This document shows positions 1,973-53,506 of a DNA stretch of 53,506 nt, piece by piece (within the stretch, counting starts at the first letter, position 1; each line of letters starts with the position of its first letter). Made by a program: the position numbers and the translations under genes. The DNA lies in the IMG/VR virus record IMGVR_UViG_3300044618_002464, positions 1 to 53,506 of that record. One strand, given 5' to 3'. The notes beneath the pieces were generated by a model, which did no database searches, had not been told where the DNA came from, and saw nothing but the letters and a program-made list of their open reading frames with translations. This stretch comes from a virus.

Positions 1973-2638
1973 TTATTTACCTTTTAATTCTTCAATCTTA
2001 TCTTGTATTTCTTTCATTATTTGATATGGTTGAAAATTCTTTGTTAATGCTAAATTTTTATTATTAGAAATATAAGGTTTATCTTTTGTTATATTAGTTG
2101 GCACTGGTGGCACTGTAAATGGCACTGCTATTGTTGCACTTGACCCAGTTCCAGTCTGAACACCTGTGTGTACATGAGCATTCAATGCTGTTGATAATAT
2201 TCCTAAATATTCATACAAATCTAATATATACTGTAATAAATCACTTATAACTTTATTTGTACTTTCACCCATCATTTGTGCTTCTGCTTTATATTCACTT
2301 TTTGCTACTTGCAGATAAACTCCATCATTTCCTGTTTTATTATACCAATGTTCAGAAAAAACAATAGTCTCACCTTCTTTTATTGAAAAGTTTTTATCAT
2401 TAATAGAATTTAATATACCAAATACTTTAGAATCTGTTTGACCATGCTGAGAAATAATACATAATTTATTTTTAGTTGGTATTGAAATTATTCCATAATT
2501 ATTTAATATCTGTACTGAATTTGGATAACCTAAAGTATTAGATGTTGATAATTTTGCAATAGTAAATCCAGTTTTTTCATCAAAGTATGCAGAATTTAAT
2601 AAAGCTATCTTAACTAAACCATTAATACTTTTTTCCAT
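1973..2638 (-). CDS. Baseplate central spike / puncturing protein, Mu gp45-like (221 aa)
   Basis: The N-terminal half has the OB-fold-like pattern of Mu gp45 and P2 gpV proteins: a GYPNSVQILNNYGIISIP segment (38-54), a G..DSKVFGIL strand and GETIVF (89-94). The region after it contains AHVHTGVQTG with an HxH at about 155-157. In known spikes, HxH near the tip binds iron. The protein would sit under the tail tube and pierce the outer host surface. It overlaps the portal stop by one nucleotide (TAATG coupling). It lies before the sheath rather than beside the hub and J genes, which is unusual. Confidence 0.65.
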   Translation of the reverse strand: MEKSINGLVKIALLNSAYFDEKTGFTIAKLSTSNTLGYPNSVQILNNYGIISIPTKNKLCIISQHGQTDSKVFGILNSINDKNFSIKEGETIVFSEHWYNKTGNDGVYLQVAKSEYKAEAQMMGESTNKVISDLLQYILDLYEYLGILSTALNAHVHTGVQTGTGSSATIAVPFTVPPVPTNITKDKPYISNNKNLALTKNFQPYQIMKEIQDKIEELKGK

Positions 2639-4212
2639 TATGATAATGCCTTGTGTTTTGTAAAGTTTGCTATAGTTTTATAATTTGTTGTTTTATCATG
2701 TCGTCTATTGTTAGGTTTATTAGATGTTTGACCTGTTTCATTTTGTGAATTACTATCATTGTCTGCATCATCATCATTTACTTTATTTGGTATTAAACTT
2801 TCTAATGCTGACTCTCTAATATCAATCATTTCACAGAATGAAGGTGTTTTTAATTTATAACCATTATCTTTTATTAGGTTTATCTTATCTAAATTCAATG
2901 CAATATCTTCTGATACATTGTAATTCTTAACGAATGTACCGAAATTATCTTGTTCTCTAAAATTTATCTGCAATTGTGGTTTAACATATTGAGCTATTAA
3001 ACATGATGATATCATTTGTACAATTGCTGTAATATTTCTACCTAATAAATCTTTTTGAGTTTCACCTAATCCATAACTACCATGAGAAGACATGCCAGAT
3101 ATTTGGTTTGGATACAATAAGGCCATTAATATTTCATAACTGTTATTGTTTAATAAATCCACCATTTCACTTAAATTAGCTGTACTTTCTATTTTTTCAA
3201 TCCAAATAGATTTACCTAACTGACCCTGTAAAGCAATATAGTTGCTTCCTGCTCCATTGTCAAACATTCCGACTTTTTTCATTATTGCATCTATACTTTG
3301 CAATGGAGTTAATCCTGTTGTTGTATTTTTATCATTGTTTTCTACAATAAAAACAGGTAAAGTCGAACCTCTTAATCTAGCAGCGTTTAAAATTATTTTT
3401 TCTAATTGACATCTTCTTATATAAAGATCATAAACTGCTCTTAACATACTTCTGCCATATGGTGAAGTAAATCCATCTATACCTTTATATGCAAAATGCA
3501 ATGATTTGTTTAATGGTAAAATTACTTCACCTATTGGCTGAGCCCAAAAAATCCGTAATGGATATGGTAAATCGCCTCTTGGTGCATATGGATTTGGTGT
3601 TGACATATTATTGAAATACATATTAGCAGACAGTATGTTCGCATTTGCACCCCATAAAGCATTAAAATAATATTGTCTAATTCCATTTTCTGTTAACATT
3701 CCATGTGGATCAACTTCAAACATTATTGATGTTGGCGGTCTAGGTTGAATGTCTTTTATAATGGTGTATATACCTCGTTTTACTGTATATGTTTTTTCAC
3801 CGACATAAAATCCAGCCCATAATGCTGTTAACATTTCTCTTATAATATCTGTTAATGGTCTATCTAATGAATCAATAGCAAATTTAATAAACTCTTCATA
3901 TTTTTTATTTTTATGTTCATACTTTCCAATTTCATTTAATACTAAATTATTAATAATTGTTAAAGCGGCTATAATAGGTGCTTGAGTAGTTGCCATCTTC
4001 TGAAATTCTAATATACTAACAGTTGATGGGTTTATAATTAAATTAGATGGTATTAAAGTTTGATAAGGTACAGAAGTTCCAATTAAATGATCTTTATTTT
4101 TTCCAAACATTGCAGAATTTTTTAATGCCTGTGAAGTATCAAAATTATTATAAGATTTATCAAATAAATCAGCACCATTTGCTTTTAAAAGTGCATCTGT
4201 TATATTGTTCAT
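2638..4212 (-). CDS. Portal protein (524 aa)
   Basis: This protein would form the dodecameric DNA entry channel at one head vertex, docking terminase during packaging and the neck afterwards. The stretch GIDGFTSPYGRSMLRAVYD (about 243-261), followed by a helix and 'GSTLPVFIVEN', resembles the 'G.pyG.s.Lr..y......k......a.e..G.P' pattern of SPP1/Mu-type portals (DUF935-like). Length is typical. The Asn/Asp-rich C-terminal tail (from about 485) is low complexity. It lies downstream of the major capsid gene, whereas most phages place it right after terminase. Confidence 0.75.
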   Translation of the reverse strand: MNNITDALLKANGADLFDKSYNNFDTSQALKNSAMFGKNKDHLIGTSVPYQTLIPSNLIINPSTVSILEFQKMATTQAPIIAALTIINNLVLNEIGKYEHKNKKYEEFIKFAIDSLDRPLTDIIREMLTALWAGFYVGEKTYTVKRGIYTIIKDIQPRPPTSIMFEVDPHGMLTENGIRQYYFNALWGANANILSANMYFNNMSTPNPYAPRGDLPYPLRIFWAQPIGEVILPLNKSLHFAYKGIDGFTSPYGRSMLRAVYDLYIRRCQLEKIILNAARLRGSTLPVFIVENNDKNTTTGLTPLQSIDAIMKKVGMFDNGAGSNYIALQGQLGKSIWIEKIESTANLSEMVDLLNNNSYEILMALLYPNQISGMSSHGSYGLGETQKDLLGRNITAIVQMISSCLIAQYVKPQLQINFREQDNFGTFVKNYNVSEDIALNLDKINLIKDNGYKLKTPSFCEMIDIRESALESLIPNKVNDDDADNDSNSQNETGQTSNKPNNRRHDKTTNYKTIANFTKHKALS

Positions 4213-8773: not shown

Positions 8774-10282
8774 TTACATATCATACCATTTTTTTACAGT
8801 ATTTTGTCTTTCTTCTGGTAATATTAATGCTTGTACTTCTGATAATGTATTTATCTGTGTACTAATCATATAAGCCAAAACATCAACTTGATCATCATGT
8901 TCTTTTGATTCACCATTCATTTTAACATGTTTGCCATCTTTTCTAAAACATTCTAATTCTTCAAAGAATTTGTTTACCCAATTACCAGAATCTGGTATCA
9001 TCACAAATTGATTCTTTATAAACATCAAACCATCATTTAATCTTAAATATTTATCTTTAACAGCTTTTAATGGTTGACATGGTATTCCCTTTCTTGGCAA
9101 CCTTTGTAATAAACCAGTTCCGCAACTTTTGTCTTCAATCCATATTCCGCGAGGTGGTGAAAATTGAATTTTATTGTCTAACTTACTTCTCCATTCATGC
9201 CATTTATCGATAATTAATTGTTCTAAATCTGGTTCTTCTAATTTTTCTCTTATCCAATCTATAATATACCATTTGTCATCAATATTAGATCGTCCCGCTA
9301 ATCCAATTACACTGTAATCATTTGATTCTTTAGTTTTTGATGCTCCATCAATAACAAAATATGTTTCTTTAAAAAATCCTGGTATTTGCATTTTTTCTGA
9401 CAGATTATATCTGGGAAAATACTCTCTATTAAGTATAATTCCAAAATCATCATAATCAATATTCCAGTTTCCGTATAACATTCTTGCTTTTAATACTGCA
9501 TTTTGTGCGTATAAATTTGCAAGATAATCTGGTGATTGTTGCACCAAAATCTGATTATCATAAACAGTTGAATTGATGAATGTAAAAGTTTTAATTGGAA
9601 TATTGTCAGGAATATCATATTGTCTTGCTTGTTCTCTAACTTCTTGTTCTGTATCACCCCAAACAAGCCTAGTTTCTAATGCTTCACCTATTCTGATAAA
9701 GTATCTAATTACACCACATCTTGATTCAATAGGTAATCCATCTTCATCTAAATACCAATCAATCATCATTCTAACCCATGAATTCTTTTTAGGATTGCAT
9801 GTTGCTCTTATGTATGGTTTAATTTTACCCATTGCTCTACCAGATGCACGATTTCTACTTACAAGAAACCAAAAAAAATCTTCATTAAACTGAGTTAACT
9901 CATCAAGACCAATAAAAGCCATCTGCCAACCTTGTTTATTTAACATTTTGGCTGGTTTATCCTGTGAAGAGAATAATATTCTTGCATTTGTTTTCTTGAA
10001 TTTCCAATCATACTTTGATGATCTGGGTGTCCCACCTACAATAGGAAATATTTCTTGAGATTGATCCCAAATTGCACCTGCACCAATTAAATCTTTAATT
10101 TCAGCACGAAAATAAGCACCAGTAAAATCAGGTACATGAATGTTTCTTGTTCCCTCTAATAACAATACAAAAGTTTTACCACCACCCATGGCACCGCCAT
10201 AAAATGCAATATCTGCATCTGTTGACATAAACATTTCTTGTTTGCCTGGCTGTGGTGATAATATCTTTCTTTGTGTGTTCAT
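8774..10282 (-). CDS. terL: Terminase large subunit (502 aa)
   Basis: This is the packaging motor ATPase plus headful or site nuclease. Walker A is GGAMGGGKT at 29-37 and Walker B is MAFIGLDE at 121-128, with the catalytic Glu at its end. The C-terminal RNase-H-like nuclease shows VIDGASKTKESNDYS (Asp about 312), WIEDKSCG (Asp about 384) and HDDQVD near 462-467. The length is normal. It acts on concatemeric DNA at the portal vertex. It is transcribed after the small-subunit candidate and a 229-aa gene. The recognition mode (cos or pac) cannot be read from it. Confidence 0.95.
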   Translation of the reverse strand: MNTQRKILSPQPGKQEMFMSTDADIAFYGGAMGGGKTFVLLLEGTRNIHVPDFTGAYFRAEIKDLIGAGAIWDQSQEIFPIVGGTPRSSKYDWKFKKTNARILFSSQDKPAKMLNKQGWQMAFIGLDELTQFNEDFFWFLVSRNRASGRAMGKIKPYIRATCNPKKNSWVRMMIDWYLDEDGLPIESRCGVIRYFIRIGEALETRLVWGDTEQEVREQARQYDIPDNIPIKTFTFINSTVYDNQILVQQSPDYLANLYAQNAVLKARMLYGNWNIDYDDFGIILNREYFPRYNLSEKMQIPGFFKETYFVIDGASKTKESNDYSVIGLAGRSNIDDKWYIIDWIREKLEEPDLEQLIIDKWHEWRSKLDNKIQFSPPRGIWIEDKSCGTGLLQRLPRKGIPCQPLKAVKDKYLRLNDGLMFIKNQFVMIPDSGNWVNKFFEELECFRKDGKHVKMNGESKEHDDQVDVLAYMISTQINTLSEVQALILPEERQNTVKKWYDM

Positions 10283-19093: not shown

Positions 19094-19261
19094 ATGAAAA
19101 AATCAGAAACAATTGATGAATTAAAAATTCAAATACAAGAATTAAGTGAATTATTTGAAAATGAAACATGGTGGGATTCTGCAAATGCAAAATTTCAAAA
19201 AAGAACATTAAAAGCATTATTAGTTTTATTAAAATTTTGTTTAAAAGGAAATCAAAAATGA
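19094..19261 (+). CDS. Small helical protein (55 aa)
   Basis: ATG 19094 follows TTTAAAAGGAAAATC, and in-frame upstream starts lie inside the terminator. The protein is helical (ELKIQIQELSELFENE) and basic at the end. It overlaps the next gene by 4 nt (ATGA). Function unknown. Confidence 0.55.
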   Translation: MKKSETIDELKIQIQELSELFENETWWDSANAKFQKRTLKALLVLLKFCLKGNQK

Positions 19262-19602
19262 TTATGAAGCACAGCGAATTATTAGAAAAATTTGAAGTAT
19301 TATTAACTTTATTGGGTTTCAGTGATTATGATTGCAACCTTGATAAAGTTTTAATGAATTATGATCATGCTGTAATATTACCAAATGTTTTATATAAAGC
19401 AAAAATATCAAGAGATGTTATAAATTGGGATACATCAGATGTTACTTTAATTTATTCTACTTCTAGTTTATATGGTCCTAGTTATTATGTTAATTTGGTG
19501 GATCAATTGGTTACAAAAAAAGTCATTACTGATTTAAAAGACATTGAATTAATAAAAAAATTCAAAGTAAGTGTTTACAGTAAACTAAAAAAGAAAATAT
19601 AA
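19258..19602 (+). CDS. Unknown protein (114 aa)
   Basis: I start it at ATG 19258 in the ATGA overlap, behind TTTAAAAGGAAATC. An upstream in-frame reading overlaps the 55-aa gene too far. It is an alpha/beta protein with a basic C-terminus (KFKVSVYSKLKKKI). No family recognised. Confidence 0.55.
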   Translation: MIMKHSELLEKFEVLLTLLGFSDYDCNLDKVLMNYDHAVILPNVLYKAKISRDVINWDTSDVTLIYSTSSLYGPSYYVNLVDQLVTKKVITDLKDIELIKKFKVSVYSKLKKKI

Positions 19603-19604
19603 AA

Positions 19605-19898
19605 ATGTGGAAAAAAATCTATATTCAGACAAAAGATATTCATATGGCCACTGACAGAGCAGCATTAATAAAACTACCTAAAAAATCTATTTACAGGGAT
19701 TATAAATTTTGGTGGGGTGGTTCATTGATAATTAAAGATAAATTCAGTCATCAATGGATATTGAGCTATAAAGATGAATTTGATGTTAAGTTGATTAAAG
19801 ATAAAAATAAAGATGATTATTTAATGTTTAAAGCCAGTGAAATCATGTCTTTTTTTGATCATGTGATTCCGTATGGTAAAATAAATTTGACTAATTAA
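19605..19898 (+). CDS. Unknown protein whose 3' end carries promoter P4 (97 aa)
   Basis: It starts 2 nt after the preceding stop. The protein is basic and rich in aromatic residues (YRDYKFWWGGSLIIKD). The last codons (GKINLTN and the stop) are encoded by the conserved promoter block around 19874-19898, so the promoter element forms the end of the gene. Function unknown. Confidence 0.55.
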   Translation: MWKKIYIQTKDIHMATDRAALIKLPKKSIYRDYKFWWGGSLIIKDKFSHQWILSYKDEFDVKLIKDKNKDDYLMFKASEIMSFFDHVIPYGKINLTN

Positions 19899-27906: not shown

Positions 27907-28419
27907 TTGAAAATTGAAGAAAATTTTTTTATAAATGATATACCGGCAATAACAACAACATTAAGATTTAAATTGTATTTTTCAAATTCATTCAGTGTAA
28001 ACGATACAACTAAAACTTTTTTAGAAAAAAATGAAAAGAATAATGACGGCAAAAAACCATTTAAAATTAAAACTGTTAACACTAGAGAATATGTTTGTTA
28101 TCAGCATTTAATAGAAAATGAATTGAAAAAACAAAACATTAATCCTAAAGTTAAAAATTTATTAACATCTGATTTATTGGCTTGTGAAATCGTTTATCAC
28201 CCAAAACAAAACAAAGATGGTACAGCAAGTAATGTAAGACCTGATGTTACTAATATTGAAAAAGGGTTAGTGGATATTCTGCAATATAAGAAAAAAAGAG
28301 GTTATGGTTATCTGTTTAAAGATGATAAGCAAATAGTTAACTTTAATTCAAAAACGGGTAAATCTAACAAATACTATAGATTAACAGTAAATTTTTATAA
28401 TGTTAAAATAATAAAATAA
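27907..28419 (+). CDS. RusA-like Holliday junction resolvase (170 aa)
   Basis: The RusA signature is clear: RPDVTNIEKGLVDIL (Asp113, Asn116, Lys119, Asp123) and, further on, LFKDDKQIV (Asp139/Asp140). These acidic residues bind the metal that cuts four-way junctions. The start is TTG 27907 behind TAGGGGGTC, with no better in-frame ATG. The N-terminal 60 residues are longer than in Escherichia coli RusA. It completes the replication and recombination set. Confidence 0.85.
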   Translation: MKIEENFFINDIPAITTTLRFKLYFSNSFSVNDTTKTFLEKNEKNNDGKKPFKIKTVNTREYVCYQHLIENELKKQNINPKVKNLLTSDLLACEIVYHPKQNKDGTASNVRPDVTNIEKGLVDILQYKKKRGYGYLFKDDKQIVNFNSKTGKSNKYYRLTVNFYNVKIIK

Positions 28420-29758: not shown

Positions 29759-30285
29759 AAGAGAAAAAACAACATATAACAGAAGTAGCAGAAGAGCAGA
29801 AGTTAAAGCCGTTTAAAATATCACATTATATTGCAAAAGAACAAGATATAGAAGTTCTATCATCATTATATGTTTCAGCAAAAAATGCAAATGAAAATAA
29901 AGAAAATCTTGCAATGGCTAAACAATACTTTACTGATATTTTGACAAAATTAAATTTCAATGTTCATGTAATAGTTTATGAAATTGAAGAACATAAAATA
30001 CCAATTGGCTATATATCATTCACCAATAGTTATAATTTAGATATTCACTTGATAGATTTTGTTTGTGCCAATGATAGTTTAGGTACAGATATTATTACTC
30101 AAATTTTAAAATCAATTTTAAAACAGTATAAAGATATTGGTGTTAAATATTGTTTAGTGTCTGTTCCATCAAAAACACAACCTATAATTGATCTTTACAA
30201 AAAAATGAATTTCATTGTATTGAGTGTAAGAGAAGACTTTTATCCAAATAAAGATAAAGCATTATTTATGGAGTTATGTTTATAA
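29755..30285 (+). CDS. GNAT-like acetyltransferase (176 aa)
   Basis: Residues 80-176 follow a GNAT fold: HVIVYEIEEHKIPIGYISF, LIDFVCANDSLGTDIITQIL (the acetyl-CoA-binding A motif in a variant without the full Q/RxxGxG), a helix, KYCLVSVPSKTQ, YKKMNFIVL and a last strand. It could acetylate a host protein or small molecule. The weak A motif lowers certainty. Confidence 0.5.
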   Translation: MKEKKQHITEVAEEQKLKPFKISHYIAKEQDIEVLSSLYVSAKNANENKENLAMAKQYFTDILTKLNFNVHVIVYEIEEHKIPIGYISFTNSYNLDIHLIDFVCANDSLGTDIITQILKSILKQYKDIGVKYCLVSVPSKTQPIIDLYKKMNFIVLSVREDFYPNKDKALFMELCL

Positions 30286-30286
30286 A

Positions 30287-30502
30287 ATGAAGCCAGTATG
30301 CGTACAACTGTTAGATTTCAGAAACAGAGATTTTTTAAAATTTTATTTAAAAAATTGTGCTGTTTCAGAAAATAACTTAAAAAATCATAAGCCAGTCAAT
30401 TATGAATATTTATTAAATATAATTGATCAAGAGGTTAATATATTAAATAAAACAGGAGATAAATATATGGTACATCACTTTCCAGTAATGTATAGTATTT
30501 GA
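30287..30502 (+). CDS. Small unknown protein (71 aa)
   Basis: It follows the GNAT gene by 1 nt. It has basic and aromatic residues (NRDFLKFYLKNC) and no recognised motif. The stop is 7 nt before the perfect 14-bp hairpin that closes this operon. Confidence 0.5.
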   Translation: MKPVCVQLLDFRNRDFLKFYLKNCAVSENNLKNHKPVNYEYLLNIIDQEVNILNKTGDKYMVHHFPVMYSI

Positions 30503-30509
30503 TTTAAAT

Positions 30510-30540
30510 ATCAGTTGTAAAGAAAATCTTTACAACTGAT
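30510..30540 (+). terminator. Perfect 14-bp hairpin ending the rightward operon
   Basis: ATCAGTTGTAAAGA and TCTTTACAACTGAT pair perfectly around AAA. No T-tract follows on the plus strand (TATAAACC), and the minus side has TATTTAAATC. It separates the rightward operon from a convergent minus-strand gene. Confidence 0.6.
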
Positions 30541-30595
30541 TATAAACCAATAATTATTAAGAGAGTATTATTTAAAATTATTGATTTACAGAACA

Positions 30596-30865
30596 TTATA
30601 ACAAATTATATTCCTGTATGCTTTTAACATGTATTAAATTATATGCAGAATAGTTCATTGTAGCATTTATTAATATCATTGAACCAGAAACAATCACATG
30701 ATTATCTTTTTTCAATAATTCTATCCCTGGACAATCTAAAGGGCATTGCAATTTAAATCTTTGTTTTAAATTATGTATTAATGCAGATTCATAATAATTT
30801 TTATTATATGGTTTAATAAAATCTAATGTGATGATTCCTGATATTTCTGTTTTATTTATTTCCAT
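30596..30865 (-). CDS. Lone minus-strand protein in the early region (89 aa)
   Basis: This is the only minus-strand gene between 14 and 35 kb. The protein is mixed, with MEINKTEISGIITLDFI at the start and a VIVSGSMILINATM strand region. Two Cys occur in CPLDCPG. There is no Shine-Dalgarno sequence before the ATG, although a near-consensus promoter and a structured leader lie upstream. Expression is therefore probably controlled by that RNA. No family recognised. Confidence 0.5.
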   Translation of the reverse strand: MEINKTEISGIITLDFIKPYNKNYYESALIHNLKQRFKLQCPLDCPGIELLKKDNHVIVSGSMILINATMNYSAYNLIHVKSIQEYNLL

Positions 30866-30893
30866 TTTTAGTAAATAAGTTTAATTAGTAGAA

Positions 30894-30982
30894 AATAGGT
30901 AGGATTAATAGAATTTTAAGGAGTATGGTGTTTTTTTAATCCTACCTATTTGTTTGTTAAGTTCAGCTCTATGAACCCAACT
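30894..30982 (-). ncRNA. Two-hairpin leader or small RNA
   Basis: Transcription from the promoter at 31016-30989 should start near 30982. The RNA opens with a 10-bp stem (30981-30972 with 30965-30956, two G-U pairs). It then has a perfect 14-bp stem (30950-30937 with 30907-30894) with a 29-nt loop containing ACTCCTTA, identical to the core of the 16S rRNA anti-Shine-Dalgarno. A short TTCT follows. It could be a free small RNA or a 5' leader of the 89-aa gene. Confidence 0.5.
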
Positions 30983-30988
30983 GAAATA

Positions 30989-31016
30989 ATTATACCACAA
31001 AAAATAAAAGTGTCAA
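30989..31016 (-). promoter_or_regulatory. Near-consensus sigma70-type promoter, leftward
   Basis: On the minus strand TTGACA (31016-31011) and TATAAT (30994-30989) are both perfect, with a 16-bp spacer. It is the best-matching promoter in the window and reads toward the hairpin RNA and the 89-aa gene. On the plus strand a possible -10 TATAAT at 31048-31053 may serve the gene at 31112, without a clear -35. Confidence 0.75.
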
Positions 31017-31111
31017 AAAAAAACTTTTATTTTATTATGTTATACGATATAATTTTTCATGGTGATCAATTGTCATCATAATTTTCACAGTTCAAAAAGA
31101 AAGGAAAAGTC

Positions 31112-32080
31112 ATGGAAAACACAAATATAGAAATTATAACTAATGAATTAGCATTGATTTTAAAAAATAATAATCATTGTTTACCTATACAAGCATCAAT
31201 TGAATGGGATAAAAGTTTGTTTAAACAAACAATAGACAAAATTATTGAAGATTACAAGTCAAGATTAACTAATGATAATTATGATGTTAAAAAAGAAATA
31301 GCATCTATCAATAATATATGTAATGAAGTTACTGAAATCAGAATAGCCATCACAAAACATTTAACAGAAAATGTTATGATTTTTGAAAATGAAATCAAGT
31401 CAGAGTTGAATAGGTTGTTAGCAATCAAAGATGTTTTAAAGTTGGAGTTTGAAGAACATGAAAAAACAAGAGTTGCTGAAAAATTTTCAATAATTGAAAG
31501 TTATTTTGATGCAGTAAAAGTTGATTGTTTTTTATCTGACAATGATATTTCTGAACTAAAAAAATCTTTATTTGAAAATCAGAAAAGATGGTCATTAAAA
31601 GGAGTAAAGATACAATCAATCAAAGAAGAGATTGATAATGCAGTAAATGTTTACAAACAACAACAAGAAAACCAAAGATTGCGAAATGAAAACATTGCAT
31701 TATTAGTAGAATCTTTAAATGCAGAATATGGTTATAATCTTTTACCTGATGTTTTTTCTAATTATGAAAATGAAGCAATTAGAAAATATTATCAAAGATT
31801 AAAAGATGTTGCAGATGAAAAAATCGCTAAAGAAAATCAATTAAAAGTAATGCAACAACAAGCTCAACAAATACAACAACCGATTCAACAGCAAGTTAAG
31901 CAAGAGATTAAACAAGAAGTTAAACAAGAAACAAAGCCAGAAAATTCAACAAATGAAAAGTTAGGTGTTTATCTAATATCTTGCAACATAAAACATAATA
32001 ATGATTTATTTTCATTGAAAGAAATTGTTGAATTAGCAAGACAAAAAAATGTGTTTTTAAAATTAACAAAAGAACAATAA
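31112..32080 (+). CDS. DUF1351-family protein (322 aa)
   Basis: The first 200 residues are a long helical region (IEWDKSLFKQTIDKIIEDYK, then KKEIASINNICNEVTEIR) like DUF1351 proteins, which accompany YqaJ and annealase genes in phages. Their role is not known. A Gln-rich linker (QQQAQQIQQPIQQQ) leads to a small C-terminal domain. Its own promoter region lies just upstream. The leader is AAAGAAAGGAAAAGTC. Confidence 0.6.
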   Translation: MENTNIEIITNELALILKNNNHCLPIQASIEWDKSLFKQTIDKIIEDYKSRLTNDNYDVKKEIASINNICNEVTEIRIAITKHLTENVMIFENEIKSELNRLLAIKDVLKLEFEEHEKTRVAEKFSIIESYFDAVKVDCFLSDNDISELKKSLFENQKRWSLKGVKIQSIKEEIDNAVNVYKQQQENQRLRNENIALLVESLNAEYGYNLLPDVFSNYENEAIRKYYQRLKDVADEKIAKENQLKVMQQQAQQIQQPIQQQVKQEIKQEVKQETKPENSTNEKLGVYLISCNIKHNNDLFSLKEIVELARQKNVFLKLTKEQ

Positions 32081-48489: not shown

Positions 48490-48894
48490 CTATTCTTTAA
48501 AACCTTGTACATATTTTTCTGTGATTTTAGGTAAATGTCTTTTTCCTAGTAAATATTTTGTTAAATTACCAGGTCCCATGTTATAGGCCATTAATCCTAA
48601 AGTGTAATTACCAAATTGATGGGTCAAGTCTTTTAAATAATGAGCACTAACATTTAAATTTTCTTGATAATATTTGGGATTTCCTGCTAAATTATAACTT
48701 ATTTTACTGTATTTATCCCAAACATCTTTACTTACTTGCCCTACTCCTTGAGTATATCCAGTAGGATCGCTTCCTATATTAATATTACCCTTGCTTTCAT
48801 TATACACTAACCTATTAAATGCTTTTGGATTTATATGAAATTTATAGGCTGTACTTAAAACCGCCCCTTGTATGTCTACAGGAGCGGAAAGAAG
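48490..48894 (-). CDS. Lytic transglycosylase (SLT) domain encoded in the -1 frame, fused to tape measure by frameshifting
   Basis: This 134-codon segment has no credible start of its own. A GTG at 48807 would cut off the first helix and has no ribosome binding site. Read from the slippery site it gives LLSAPVDIQGAVLSTAYKFH, then VYNESKGN with catalytic Glu, TQGVGQVSKDVW and LGLMAYNMGPGN, all SLT landmarks. The product cleaves peptidoglycan between MurNAc and GlcNAc. As a C-terminal domain of the tape measure (602 + 134 = 736 aa, Glu about 635) it would be delivered with the tail at infection to open the cell wall. Confidence 0.85.
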   Translation of the reverse strand, partial: LLSAPVDIQGAVLSTAYKFHINPKAFNRLVYNESKGNINIGSDPTGYTQGVGQVSKDVWDKYSKISYNLAGNPKYYQENLNVSAHYLKDLTHQFGNYTLGLMAYNMGPGNLTKYLLGKRHLPKITEKYVQGFKE

Positions 48895-48900
48895 TTTTTT
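48861..48900 (-). promoter_or_regulatory. Programmed -1 ribosomal frameshift signal in the tape measure gene
   Basis: On the mRNA, AAAGGGA (48917-48911) lies 10 nt before A_AAA_AAC (48900-48894, in the correct frame). A 6-nt spacer TTCTTT and a 7-bp stem CCGCTCC/GGGGCGG (48887-48881 with 48867-48861, one G-U) with a 13-nt loop follow. The loop contains the zero-frame stop TAG. This is the same three-part layout as dnaX. The loop TGTA could also pair with TACA at 48853-48850 to form a pseudoknot. Confidence 0.85.
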
Positions 48901-50699
48901 GTTGGGTCTGTCCCTTTAGGGTGTACCATAGGAGACATACCGGTATAACCACCACTACTGCCACCAGAAGATGAACTATTACCACCATTGTCAATAACAG
49001 TAACATGCTGTGCTGATACTTGTAGACTAGATATATCTTTTAAACCTTGTTGTAATGAAGTGATAATATCAACACCTAATTTCTGTGCAACATTTTCACT
49101 TGCATCTAAACCATCATTACTCGGATTTTTAAATACTTGAGCTCTTTCTCTATTTAATGCAATAATTTTTTCTGGTGAAAATCCAAATTTACCGGCAACA
49201 GCTAAATCTAAGCCATAACTATTAATATCTTTAGTATCACCAGACATAAAACTTTGTGCATGTTGTACTAATTCATTTATCTTGTCTGCTTTACCACTTA
49301 ATTTACCAGTTCTTAATGTTGTATTCCAGTCTATACCCATTGCTTGTTTTAATGCTTCATTTCTAGCAAATTGAGAAATATCTTCATTTGCATATTCAGA
49401 TACAGCGCTAGAAATATGAGGATTATATTGTGAGTTATAAGCTAACTCTCTTGATAAATCTTTACTGTATCCTATTGTCATTAAATTTAATGCTGTTTGA
49501 TTTGTTTGTTCAGAATAACCATAACCAAATTTATTACGAGCATCTTTAATATCTTCACTGAAAGATTCCAATGATTTACCAGTAACAATCTGATACTGTG
49601 TTGCTTGAGTAGTTAACTTTGCAAAAGAATCCACAGCAAAACCTGCTTTGGTAAAATTCTGTGCTACTGCTGACAGATTTTCATTTAATGGATTGCTTCC
49701 CATATAAGGAACGATATTATTTAATATTGAATTGTAGTTTAAGTCTGAACCATACTTTTTCTCAAACTGTGCTGACAATGGTGCATTTATAGCTGAACCA
49801 CCAGTTATTTTACTTGATGCTAATTCATAATTGCTTTTATTTAAACCAAAGCGACTAAATCCTGTTGACCATTCAGAAACAGAAGCTGATGCCATTCTTT
49901 CTGATATAGCAGATTTTAAAGCTGTTTCAACTTCTATTTTTTGATTTTTTTCAGCGGCCGACAATGTACCATAACCACCACCCAACAATGCACCGCCATA
50001 TTTACCATATCTTGAACCATACTTTGCCCCTTCATATGTACCAACTGCTAAACCTGGTAAATTCCCAACTGTAAACCCTGCAATACCACCAGTTAACCCA
50101 CCCAAAATACCACCGCCAATACCTCCAACAGTTCCCCATATTCCCTGACTTTTTGCAAGGTTATTAGATATTTGTTGTTCTTTGTTGACAGAATATAAAT
50201 TAGCAATGTATCCATTAAAAGATTGATTTGCATTACCTTTTATTGCTTCTTGAATAAAACCACCTTGACTAGTGGCTCTACCCATGATTGCATTTGCTTC
50301 ATTATTCATGTATCTAGTAGCGGTAACAGTCAAGCCAGTTAATAATGTTGCACCAATTAATTTACCTGTACTTGCACCAATTGATGAAAATATCTGATTA
50401 AATGATTGCTGTTGTTTATTAAGCCAATCCTGAAATACTTGTACCTGTTCATCATTTGGAAAGTCGTTAGGATTACGATCAAATTCAGGATTTCTCGAGT
50501 ATTTTGGCTCTTTATTTGATTCACTGTTTACTGCATTACCTGCTTTATTGTCAAAATTTAAATTCAATTTGTCTATTGATGAATTTAATTTTGATAAAAT
50601 ATCTGCTAAATATTGAAAACTTGCATTATTATTACCTGACATATCAGATATATTATCATCACCACCAACAAATTGAATTTGAATCTTATGATCAGACAT
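48876..50699 (-). CDS. Tape measure-like tail protein, zero-frame product (607 aa)
   Basis: It follows the tail chaperone gene and precedes the hub, the place of tape measure proteins. A polar N-terminus is followed by a hydrophobic segment (106-126) and a Gly-rich, glycine-zipper-like region (186-245, VGGIGGGILGGLTGGIAGFT), as in tape measures that insert into membranes. The rest is helical. It is short for a tape measure, which predicts a short tail. Gly/Ser-rich residues form a linker just before the frameshift site, as expected for a fused domain. Confidence 0.72.
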   Translation of the reverse strand: MSDHKIQIQFVGGDDNISDMSGNNNASFQYLADILSKLNSSIDKLNLNFDNKAGNAVNSESNKEPKYSRNPEFDRNPNDFPNDEQVQVFQDWLNKQQQSFNQIFSSIGASTGKLIGATLLTGLTVTATRYMNNEANAIMGRATSQGGFIQEAIKGNANQSFNGYIANLYSVNKEQQISNNLAKSQGIWGTVGGIGGGILGGLTGGIAGFTVGNLPGLAVGTYEGAKYGSRYGKYGGALLGGGYGTLSAAEKNQKIEVETALKSAISERMASASVSEWSTGFSRFGLNKSNYELASSKITGGSAINAPLSAQFEKKYGSDLNYNSILNNIVPYMGSNPLNENLSAVAQNFTKAGFAVDSFAKLTTQATQYQIVTGKSLESFSEDIKDARNKFGYGYSEQTNQTALNLMTIGYSKDLSRELAYNSQYNPHISSAVSEYANEDISQFARNEALKQAMGIDWNTTLRTGKLSGKADKINELVQHAQSFMSGDTKDINSYGLDLAVAGKFGFSPEKIIALNRERAQVFKNPSNDGLDASENVAQKLGVDIITSLQQGLKDISSLQVSAQHVTVIDNGGNSSSSGGSSGGYTGMSPMVHPKGTDPTKNFFPLL

Positions 50700-50701
50700 T
50701 T

Positions 50702-50863
50702 TTATTTTGTCCTTTCTTGCTCGATTTTATTTACAATTAACTTTAACCACATTAAGTATTCAAAACGGATTGCATCTTCTCTTCCAGGCTTCTGCAAGAG
50801 ATCGCTAATGAACGAGCTATTTGTCGTAAGCTCAATAAGTCTAAGGTATTCAAAAGTTCTGGC
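50702..50863 (-). CDS. Minus-one-frame extension of the tail assembly chaperone (53 aa, GT-like)
   Basis: From the A-run at 50872-50864 the -1 frame stays open for 53 codons (ARTFEYLRLIELTTNSSFIS and on). It stops at TAA 50704-50702, 2 nt before the tape measure ATG. The extension covers the otherwise empty 52 bp after the zero-frame stop. The chaperone product would be 174 + 53 = 227 aa. This corresponds to the lambda G-T protein, which holds tail protein and tape measure together. The overlap region is GC-richer than its surroundings, as two-frame coding would cause. Confidence 0.75.
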   Translation of the reverse strand, partial: ARTFEYLRLIELTTNSSFISDLLQKPGREDAIRFEYLMWLKLIVNKIEQERTK

Positions 50864-51384
50864 TTTTTTTTTACTGCTTTTTCAATATTGATTCTTTCAT
50901 CTTCTGACATCTGTGTTGGTCTAATAGTGCATTCTTTTACCCAGTTAGCATAGATTTCAAATAAATCATTTAACATACCTAATGGCAACCAACCTAAATC
51001 TTCTAATGTTAAAGTTTCTTTGCTTTTTTCTTTTACTGGTGATTTAGTGTTTGCTTTATATAATGTAACAAGCATTTTTCTTAATGAAATTCTAATGTCA
51101 TCTCTTATATTGTTTTCATCACAGAATTTTATAACTTCTGATTCTATATCAAAATTTTCTTGTGCTGATAATATTCTTAATTCAAGCTCTATTCCGTTTA
51201 TTTCAATATTGGTATATGTACCAACACCATATTGAACAAAGTCCAATATCTTATTTAATTTCATTGCTTGAAAAGTTTTATCAAGATCAGTATTTTCAAT
51301 TGGCTTTTCTTTTATATCACTAATTACATTTCTATTATTAGTGGTCATTGCTTGTATTCTTTGTAATTTTTCTTGTCTATCCAT
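50752..51384 (-). CDS. Tail assembly chaperone, zero-frame product (210 aa, G-like)
   Basis: It lies between the tube and tape measure genes, the defining position. Residues 55-110 hold a small alpha/beta domain (IEINGIELELRILSAQENFD), and the second half is helical. The homologue class helps assemble tube subunits on the tape measure and is absent from the virion. The frame contains GTA AAA AAA AAG at 50874-50863, a slippery site for the -1 product. Confidence 0.75.
   Translation of the reverse strand: MDRQEKLQRIQAMTTNNRNVISDIKEKPIENTDLDKTFQAMKLNKILDFVQYGVGTYTNIEINGIELELRILSAQENFDIESEVIKFCDENNIRDDIRISLRKMLVTLYKANTKSPVKEKSKETLTLEDLGWLPLGMLNDLFEIYANWVKECTIRPTQMSEDERINIEKAVKKKPELLNTLDLLSLRQIARSLAISCRSLEEKMQSVLNT
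50863..50872 (-). promoter_or_regulatory. Slippery site for -1 frameshift in the tail chaperone
   Basis: The nine A bases of GTA-AAA-AAA-AAG give A_AAA_AAA and A_AAA_AAG in the correct frame. A_AAA_AAG is the most efficient slippery heptamer in Escherichia coli. No strong stem or Shine-Dalgarno-like stimulator is obvious nearby, unlike the downstream tape measure site. Confidence 0.7.
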
Positions 51385-51386
51385 TT

Positions 51387-51827
51387 TTATAATCCTGATA
51401 CTCTAGTTGCTATAAAGCTAACTGATCTTGTTAATTCTTCACCCTCACCATCACCATTTATACCATTACCAGTGGGGTTAATTCCTGAAATAATATAATG
51501 ATAAGGTAATGCAATATCTTTACCATCTGCTGAAACTTTAAAAGGTATTATGCTTATCTGCATATCTGGATTTGCTTTGCATAATTCCCTAAAATTAATG
51601 TATTTTTCTGTATCTGGTAATATTTCTTTCCAGCTAACTGAATATTCAGTATTACCCATTGTTGTACCTAAAGGCAATCCGTCAGGTGTCATACTTTTTA
51701 ATGCTTTAGAATTAGTTGCTCCACCAATTCTAAAGTTTTGAATATATCCATCTAAATATGCAATTCCATCTATATTTATTTTTGCACGATCCCACTGTAC
51801 TAATGTACCTGAATTAACTCCTGCCAT
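51387..51827 (-). CDS. Tail tube protein (146 aa)
   Basis: This is a small, beta-rich protein directly after the sheath gene. AKINIDGIAYLDGYIQNFRI, EYSVSWKEILPDTEKYINFR and a final strand SFIATRVSGL suit the tube fold. It stacks as hexameric rings inside the sheath. A leader ending CCTTTTT... AAAGGATAAATAAAA precedes the ATG. Its length agrees with myovirus tubes. Confidence 0.8.
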   Translation of the reverse strand: MAGVNSGTLVQWDRAKINIDGIAYLDGYIQNFRIGGATNSKALKSMTPDGLPLGTTMGNTEYSVSWKEILPDTEKYINFRELCKANPDMQISIIPFKVSADGKDIALPYHYIISGINPTGNGINGDGEGEELTRSVSFIATRVSGL

Positions 51828-51843
51828 TTTTATTTATCCTTTT

Positions 51844-53379
51844 TTAAAATGAAGTGATTAATGAACTAAAAATATTGAATGTAATATCAACACCTTGTAA
51901 ACCAGGTATAATTTGTAAAGGTATTGAAGCTAATATATCTTTAGCATTTTTAGAGTCTGCTATTACTATTACTTTATTTTGATATAAATTAACATTTTCT
52001 AACATTCCGTTTGCTTCTGCATCAACTAAAATTTGAATTATACCTGCTCTAAATTGCTCTCTAAAGTCTGGTGAATTGAAAGCAATCCCTCTGTTGTTTG
52101 GCAATTCTTTTATAACATTAAAATAATCACATGCTTCTTGTTTAATATATCTAATTGAATCTTGTACATTTGTTTGATTAAATTCTGTATTAGTTGTTGT
52201 TGTGTTTGGTAAAGTCGTTCCACTTGTGTTACTACTCAAAAATTCTACCAAATTAAGTGTAATATTAGCACCCAATACCAACCACCCTTGTTCAATTGCT
52301 ATATCACCATTACCACCTTCTTGGCGATCATATGATGTTGTTGAAGCAACACTGCTTACAGGTAACATCATTTTTGCTGTTGTCAACAATGGGAAAGGAA
52401 TATCACCATTTGCGTACATGTATGCAACAGCACTAGCAACAGCACCAGAACCAACATTTTGCTCTGCATTGTCTAATGGCACATCACCAAATTGACATAC
52501 ATAAGGGTATGTTGGTAATATCAAATTGTAATCATTTGGAGATGGTAAATTTGCAGATTGATTTGGTAAAGATGTTATATTTCCTGCAATTCCATATGTT
52601 CCATAGTGTTTTAATAATCCTTGATTACCTAAATTCAATTGTTTAACAATACCAAAGAAATCACCATATTTTGTGGTAATATCAGTAATTACATTAATCG
52701 GATATTGTAAAACACAAGCATATAAGTTAAGGCCATTTAAATATTGACCTGCATTTTGTGTTGAATCTAAAGTTATTGTGAATGTTTTTGTAACATCAAA
52801 AGCACCACCAGTTACATTTGTTACAGAAACTCTTACAGTTCCAGATGTTGATGATGTTTGAAATACATTAAATCCATTATATATACCAGTTACAGTTGTT
52901 GTTGCATATTCAACTTTTTCTATTTGAGTTATTGAACCAGTATTTAACTTTAACAAATCATTAAATGGTTGATCAGGTGATACATTTAATTTTGCTTCAT
53001 CAGTGTTTAAACATAATACTAAATTACCATTTTCACCATCTTCGCTATTCCATTGTACAGTTGCTTTTGTATAACCTGACATTATCAACATATCTTGAGA
53101 ATAAGAAACAACCCAATCCATAGTTGGGTCACCATTTACAAAAGTCCTTGAAGGTGTAATAGTATCACCATTAATCTTAGTTATTGAAAATGAAATTACA
53201 GTAGGATTGTTTTTATTGTCAATAATATATTGTATAATTTCACTTGCTTTTATATCACCACTAGTTAAAATTGTACTGTTTAAATCTGTTAATACTTGAG
53301 ATACAGCTGAATTACCAAGTGGAGTTGTTGGCAAGAAACCAAAATTATTTAAAGTTGAAATATCTGTATATTGAAAATC
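51844..53379 (-). CDS. Contractile tail sheath protein, C-terminal part (gene starts at 714, 749 aa in total)
   Basis: Codons 239-749 plus stop of the sheath. The C-terminal third shows sheath-like features: SYDRQEGGNGDIAIEQGWLV, then SIRYIKQEACDYFNVIKELP, RGIAFNSPDFREQFRAGIIQ and ILVDAEANGMLENV. The reading is open across 53335-53379 and joins 1-714 without a frame change. An ATG at 53334 is internal and not the true start. The protein polymerises around the tube and contracts on infection. Confidence 0.87.
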   Translation of the reverse strand, partial: DFQYTDISTLNNFGFLPTTPLGNSAVSQVLTDLNSTILTSGDIKASEIIQYIIDNKNNPTVISFSITKINGDTITPSRTFVNGDPTMDWVVSYSQDMLIMSGYTKATVQWNSEDGENGNLVLCLNTDEAKLNVSPDQPFNDLLKLNTGSITQIEKVEYATTTVTGIYNGFNVFQTSSTSGTVRVSVTNVTGGAFDVTKTFTITLDSTQNAGQYLNGLNLYACVLQYPINVITDITTKYGDFFGIVKQLNLGNQGLLKHYGTYGIAGNITSLPNQSANLPSPNDYNLILPTYPYVCQFGDVPLDNAEQNVGSGAVASAVAYMYANGDIPFPLLTTAKMMLPVSSVASTTSYDRQEGGNGDIAIEQGWLVLGANITLNLVEFLSSNTSGTTLPNTTTTNTEFNQTNVQDSIRYIKQEACDYFNVIKELPNNRGIAFNSPDFREQFRAGIIQILVDAEANGMLENVNLYQNKVIVIADSKNAKDILASIPLQIIPGLQGVDITFNIFSSLITSF

Positions 53380-53506
53380 TAAAAATACACTTCCGTCTGC
53401 ATTTACTGTTATTTTGTTTGCTGTTTGTAAAGTAAACGGTGTACTGTTAGGAGATACAGAAGCACTATTATCAGGTATTATTGATAATAATGCAGTTGGA
53501 TAACCT
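53380..53506. repeat. Terminal overlap, copy 2 (identical to 1-127)
   Basis: The copy of bases 1-127 closes the circle. All 127 bases lie inside the sheath gene and are read in the same frame in both copies. Unit length without the duplicate is 53,379 bp. Confidence 0.95.

Follow-up and report, generated by a model that had tools for sequence, protein, structure and literature searches.

Results

Tail gene region and genome setting

The window analysed here is the whole 53,506-nt virus record IMGVR_UViG_3300044618_002464, which has a GC content of 27.1% and a GC3 of 0.157. A 127-bp direct terminal repeat occupies positions 1-127 and 53380-53506, and the record is therefore likely to be a circular map, complete at 53,379 bp. 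On the minus strand, genes follow one another in the order sheath-like gene, tube-size gene, chaperone gene G, tape measure gene and baseplate genes (Table 1), the last of these recognised by matches to phrog_6 (baseplate wedge, 7e-12) and phrog_184 (baseplate hub, 1e-9). Head genes run leftwards to position 1, with the terminase at 8774-10282 and the portal at 2638-4212. On the circularised map, the sheath-like gene starts at window position 714 behind an AAGGA and spans the record ends, so that linear gene calling truncates it. This gene order is that of a contractile tail in a low-GC unclassified phage, where a sub-threshold Pfam match is the support for the sheath, and the names of the tube and tape measure come from their position and size. 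There are no tRNA genes in the window.

Among 40-nt folds of the sense strand, the two most stable in the genome lie at 50286 on the minus strand (-16.9 kcal/mol), inside the tape measure gene, and at 30505 on the plus strand (-16.8 kcal/mol), in a gap without a long ORF (30285-31112). Also on the plus strand, ORF 19168-19602 ends in an A AAA AAG from which the -1 frame runs 101 codons into the next ORF (region 19168-19898); this next ORF has its own ATG at 19605, the structure downstream is weak (-5.0), and the two are probably ordinary adjacent genes.

Table 1. Features of the tail gene region, in the order in which they are read on the minus strand
Feature	Position	Strand	Details
Tail sheath gene, probable	51844..53506, on across the record end to window 714	-	749 aa when circularised; Pfam Phage_sheath_1C 0.0035, below cut-off
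Tail tube gene, probable	51387..51827	-	146 aa; by position and size only
Gene G, tail assembly chaperone, frame-0 product	50752..51384	-	210 aa; ORF call, position between tube-size gene and tape measure
Slippery run A9G	50863..50872	-	In frame GTA AAA AAA AAG; context ...GCA GTA AAA AAA AAG CCA...
T extension	50702..50863	-	53 codons in the -1 frame plus TAA
Dual-read stretch	50755..50862	-	36 codons (108 nt); atypical codons in both frames
Tape measure protein, frame-0 product	48876..50699	-	607 aa; by position, size and a Gly-rich hydrophobic stretch
Second slippery heptamer A AAA AAC	48894..48900	-	Five codons before the tape measure stop
Hairpin	48861..48887	-	6 nt past the second heptamer; 11 bp, -15.6 kcal/mol, z -4.8
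-1 frame with lytic transglycosylase SLT domain	48490..48894	-	134 codons; fusion 736 aa; Pfam PF01464 5e-9

A slippery run and an open -1 frame at the end of G

Near the 3' end of G lies a run of nine adenines (50872-50864); no other occurs in the sense strand of any minus-strand gene. Together with the guanine that follows, it holds two overlapping in-frame heptamers, A AAA AAA (50872-50866) and A AAA AAG (50869-50863). A shift into the -1 frame at this point leads through the T extension, whose 53 residues are ARTFEYLRLIELTTNSSFISDLLQKPGREDAIRFEYLMWLKLIVNKIEQERTK, to a TAA at 50704-50702, after which there are only two nucleotides (AA) before the tape measure ATG at 50699; an SD-like AAAGGA upstream of this ATG sits inside the end of the T frame. 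The resulting GT fusion is 227 aa long, compared with 210 aa for G. The first-pass annotation had proposed a G/GT-type -1 frameshift here, with GTA AAA AAA AAG in frame and a 53-codon -1 frame ending 2 nt before the tape measure gene, and each of its coordinates proved exact to the base.

A signature of coding in both frames

The composition of the dual-read stretch sets it apart from its surroundings. Its GC content is 0.40, compared with 0.264 upstream and 0.27 downstream, in agreement with the GC enrichment noted in the first annotation. Its GC3 is 0.42 versus 0.157 for the genome, and the composition drops back to 27% GC immediately where frame 0 stops. Codon adaptation within the overlap is 0.32 in frame 0 and 0.31 in the -1 frame, values that lie below the minimum of 0.43 (median 0.72) found for all 36-codon windows of 36 other genes. 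Past the frame-0 stop, over the 16 codons read in the -1 frame only, the coding score is found in the -1 frame only. If a single frame were real it should look normal, yet both frames are abnormal in the overlap, which argues against a one-frame reading.

It is also worth considering whether the -1 frame might be open by chance, its reading untranslated and the gap before the tape measure gene a mere spacer. Taken by itself, the open frame is weak evidence: it persists across the overlap in 7% of synonymous reshuffles of frame 0, and the 16 further codons stay open with a probability of about 0.24, although comparable windows of other genes have it in only 0.7% of cases. The composition, in contrast, is strong evidence. 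Under a model in which only frame 0 is translated, a GC content as high as that seen arises in 3.5e-5 of draws, and it never coincides with an open second frame (0 of 200,000). With the gene position and the heptamer both as expected for a G/GT pair, a chance open frame is improbable in the extreme.

The model in which only the -1 frame is real fares no better, as observed GC and an open second frame coincide in 0 of its 200,000 draws, and the rejection of both single-frame models is a strong argument against a simple homopolymer error as well as against chance. An indel in the assembly would mean that the true gene is one uninterrupted frame, with either the frame-0 or the -1 reading an artefact; a run of nine adenines is error-prone in some sequencing methods, and there is one sequence only. 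However, such an error does not account for two frames that are equally abnormal within the overlap and normal outside it, and we regard it as highly improbable. A single sequence with so long a two-frame overlap thus gives a strong case for dual coding.

A probable G/GT pair and the origin of the shift

The mark of the class, a -1 frame that stays open past the G stop to the tape measure start and is under coding constraint, is found in G. The location of the gene, its slippery run, a -1 extension filling the space up to the tape measure gene and the signature of coding in two frames all support the lambda G/GT-type reading put forward in the first annotation, and we think it highly likely that this stretch is a tail-assembly chaperone gene of that type with a -1 shift. 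A -1 slip very probably gives the phage its chaperone in two versions. Most ribosomes would read G to its stop and yield the 210-aa chaperone, and a minority would slip one base back on A AAA AAA AAG and read 53 more codons, yielding the 227-aa GT. In lambda and many other tailed phages, G is the part that binds the tape measure protein, and T the part that binds the tube protein (PMC5009743). By analogy with lambda, the G made here would bind the tape measure protein, and GT would recruit the tube protein through its T tail.

What moves the reading into the -1 frame deserves separate consideration. Both A AAA AAG and A AAA AAA belong to the recognised ribosomal -1 heptamers (PMC5009743, PMC3711429). 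No RNA structure 3' of the A9 run exceeds that of shuffled sequences (z -0.14 and -0.49), and because the run of nine adenines is not followed by a hairpin, the sequence fits ribosomal and polymerase slippage alike. In the latter case GT would still be real, made by standard translation of transcripts in which RNA polymerase, slipping on the A9 run, had added one A or dropped two. Runs of more than seven adenines are recognised polymerase slippage sites (PMC3711429), and the structure analysis found no ribosomal stimulator downstream of the run. However, this same run also holds two in-frame ribosomal heptamers, and the other G/GT pairs treated in the review are ribosomal (PMC5009743). Slippage of the polymerase therefore seems rather unlikely to us, and slippage of the ribosome is the likely cause of the GT shift.

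A second candidate -1 site that would join the tape measure to a transglycosylase domain

The tape measure ORF ends in PTKNFFPLL-stop, and the codons ACA AAA AAC TTC within this end contain a heptamer, A AAA AAC, that is followed by a stable hairpin (Table 1). In the 62-nt stretch the structure has a z of -3.5, and none of 200 shuffles was as stable; the hairpin is the third most stable 40-nt fold on the sense strand in the genome. ORFs of 80 codons or more contain 285 in-frame heptamers; among them, this site ranks first both for the stability of the structure behind it and for the length over which its -1 frame continues beyond the frame-0 stop. The site therefore combines a heptamer of the form X XXY YYZ, a spacer of 6 nt (within the range of 5-9 nt for -1 frameshift sites) and a stable 3' structure, and its -1 frame encodes a real protein segment, an SLT domain, without a usable start of its own.

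Several observations bear on whether this domain could be started separately. The PHROG matches of the SLT frame begin at residue 8 (position 48888), two codons past the heptamer, and the Pfam SLT match starts before the first possible start codon of its ORF. The sole in-frame start is a GTG at 48807, which lies inside the domain just before the catalytic-type Glu (YNES). Judging from the layout of SLT domains, initiation there would remove the helix ahead of this Glu.

These features suggest a second programmed -1 shift that probably yields a 607-aa tape measure protein together with a 736-aa tape measure-transglycosylase fusion, the junction of which would read PTKN-LLSAPVDIQ. Through the heptamer, the 6-nt spacer and the hairpin, a minority of the tape measure copies would then acquire the transglycosylase domain. 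We think it reasonably probable that two consecutive tail genes each contain a programmed -1 shift, with the second setting how many of a tail's few tape measure copies carry a peptidoglycan-cutting domain. The competing explanations are that the SLT ORF is a small gene started at GTG 48807, or that the junction is a sequencing error, the hairpin being an attenuator in either case. A GTG is indeed present, UUUU comes right behind the hairpin, and a one-base error would likewise split one gene into two. Nevertheless, the family matches begin at 48888-48843, ahead of the GTG, the AGG that precedes this codon is only 3 nt away, and the hairpin was not called as a terminator. Furthermore, a random error is unlikely to place both an A AAA AAC and the most stable of the structures behind in-frame heptamers at the junction. 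Taken together, we consider a separate gene or an error unlikely, and a programmed shift remains the reading that we prefer.

Relatives of the phage and of its tail genes

The G protein has no match among Pfam, PHROGs and NCBIfam profiles, and the tape measure protein likewise has no profile match. A match of T to phrog_23433 (E 0.013) was set aside as too weak, as was an AlphaFold model of G from its single sequence (pLDDT 38). Viral contigs were searched with the chaperone, sheath, portal, terminase and tape measure, genome contigs with the chaperone and terminase, and annotated phages with the chaperone, GT, T, sheath, baseplate wedge, tape measure, portal and terminase. Across these searches only the terminase and, weakly, the portal gave matches; no relatives of the chaperone were found in any of the three collections and none of the tape measure in the viral contigs or annotated phages. 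The single-protein scans match exact 8-residue words and so exclude close relatives only. A tblastn search among 50,697 phage records identified relatives for the terminase (about 30-45% identity) and, weakly, for the portal only; within the stretches compared, these terminase relatives have no tail gene in common with the phage. Low similarity between phages is normal for the chaperone class (PMC5009743). The phage is thus an orphan, known from a single environmental sequence.

Discussion

The G/GT shift described here adds an orphan low-GC phage to the many in which this device is conserved. The tape measure-transglycosylase site is of a less usual kind and would matter more than the chaperone shift, and it too is drawn from one sequence. 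If it is used as proposed, the amount of a virion enzyme would be under the control of recoding, and the site suggests that frameshifting can serve phages as a means of dosing the cell-wall-cutting domain that a tape measure carries. Gene-calling software would report a protein of this kind as two, namely a shortened tape measure and an enzyme lacking its first part. In the portion of the literature that our search covered, we found no description of a tape measure SLT domain gained by frameshift. Tape measure genes are among the unexpected predictions of PRFect, the authors of which suspect that these may be mislabelled chaperones (PMC10885494).

It is informative to place both sites beside known systems. 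The lambda G/GT pair, reviewed in PMC5009743 (which cites Xu, Hendrix and Duda 2004), resembles the present one in its position before the tape measure gene, in a -1 shift near the 3' end of G and in a short T that runs to the tape measure start. The two have no detectable sequence similarity, and the slippery run here is A9G. In addition, the frames here overlap by 36 codons, GT is just 17 residues longer than G, and the two products are predicted from the sequence.

A second comparison is offered by the fecal phage MT835491, which has a related terminase. It has the same order of sheath, tube, chaperone and tape measure, and its XkdN-like chaperone (phrog_389, 1.5e-23) contains an unannotated -1 site, A AAA AAC at 27918-27924, with a 59-codon extension. 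It differs in having a stop directly after the heptamer and a hairpin of -13.7 kcal/mol. A resemblance between T and the MT835491 extension was considered and dropped, as BLASTP gave no alignment. MT835491 shows that the layout is a normal one, not that the genes are homologous.

With regard to the tape measure, Basilisk-like phages have tape measure proteins with in-frame lytic transglycosylase domains (PMC6145125). All copies of those proteins carry the domain in frame, whereas in the present phage a -1 shift would be the only way to reach it. In another virus record, an SLT domain lies inside a 3251-residue open frame. Other SLT matches (Moorella phage MCACPph1, MT835635) are separate genes without such a junction and are not parallels. 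The use of two shift sites by one phage has precedent: phage A2 has two -1 events, and Listeria phage PSA uses +1 shifts (PMC5009743). No tape measure case is named among the two-shift phages in the part of that review used here. The shifts of PSA are in its capsid and tail shaft genes, whereas those proposed here lie in the chaperone and tape measure genes, side by side in the tail gene order.
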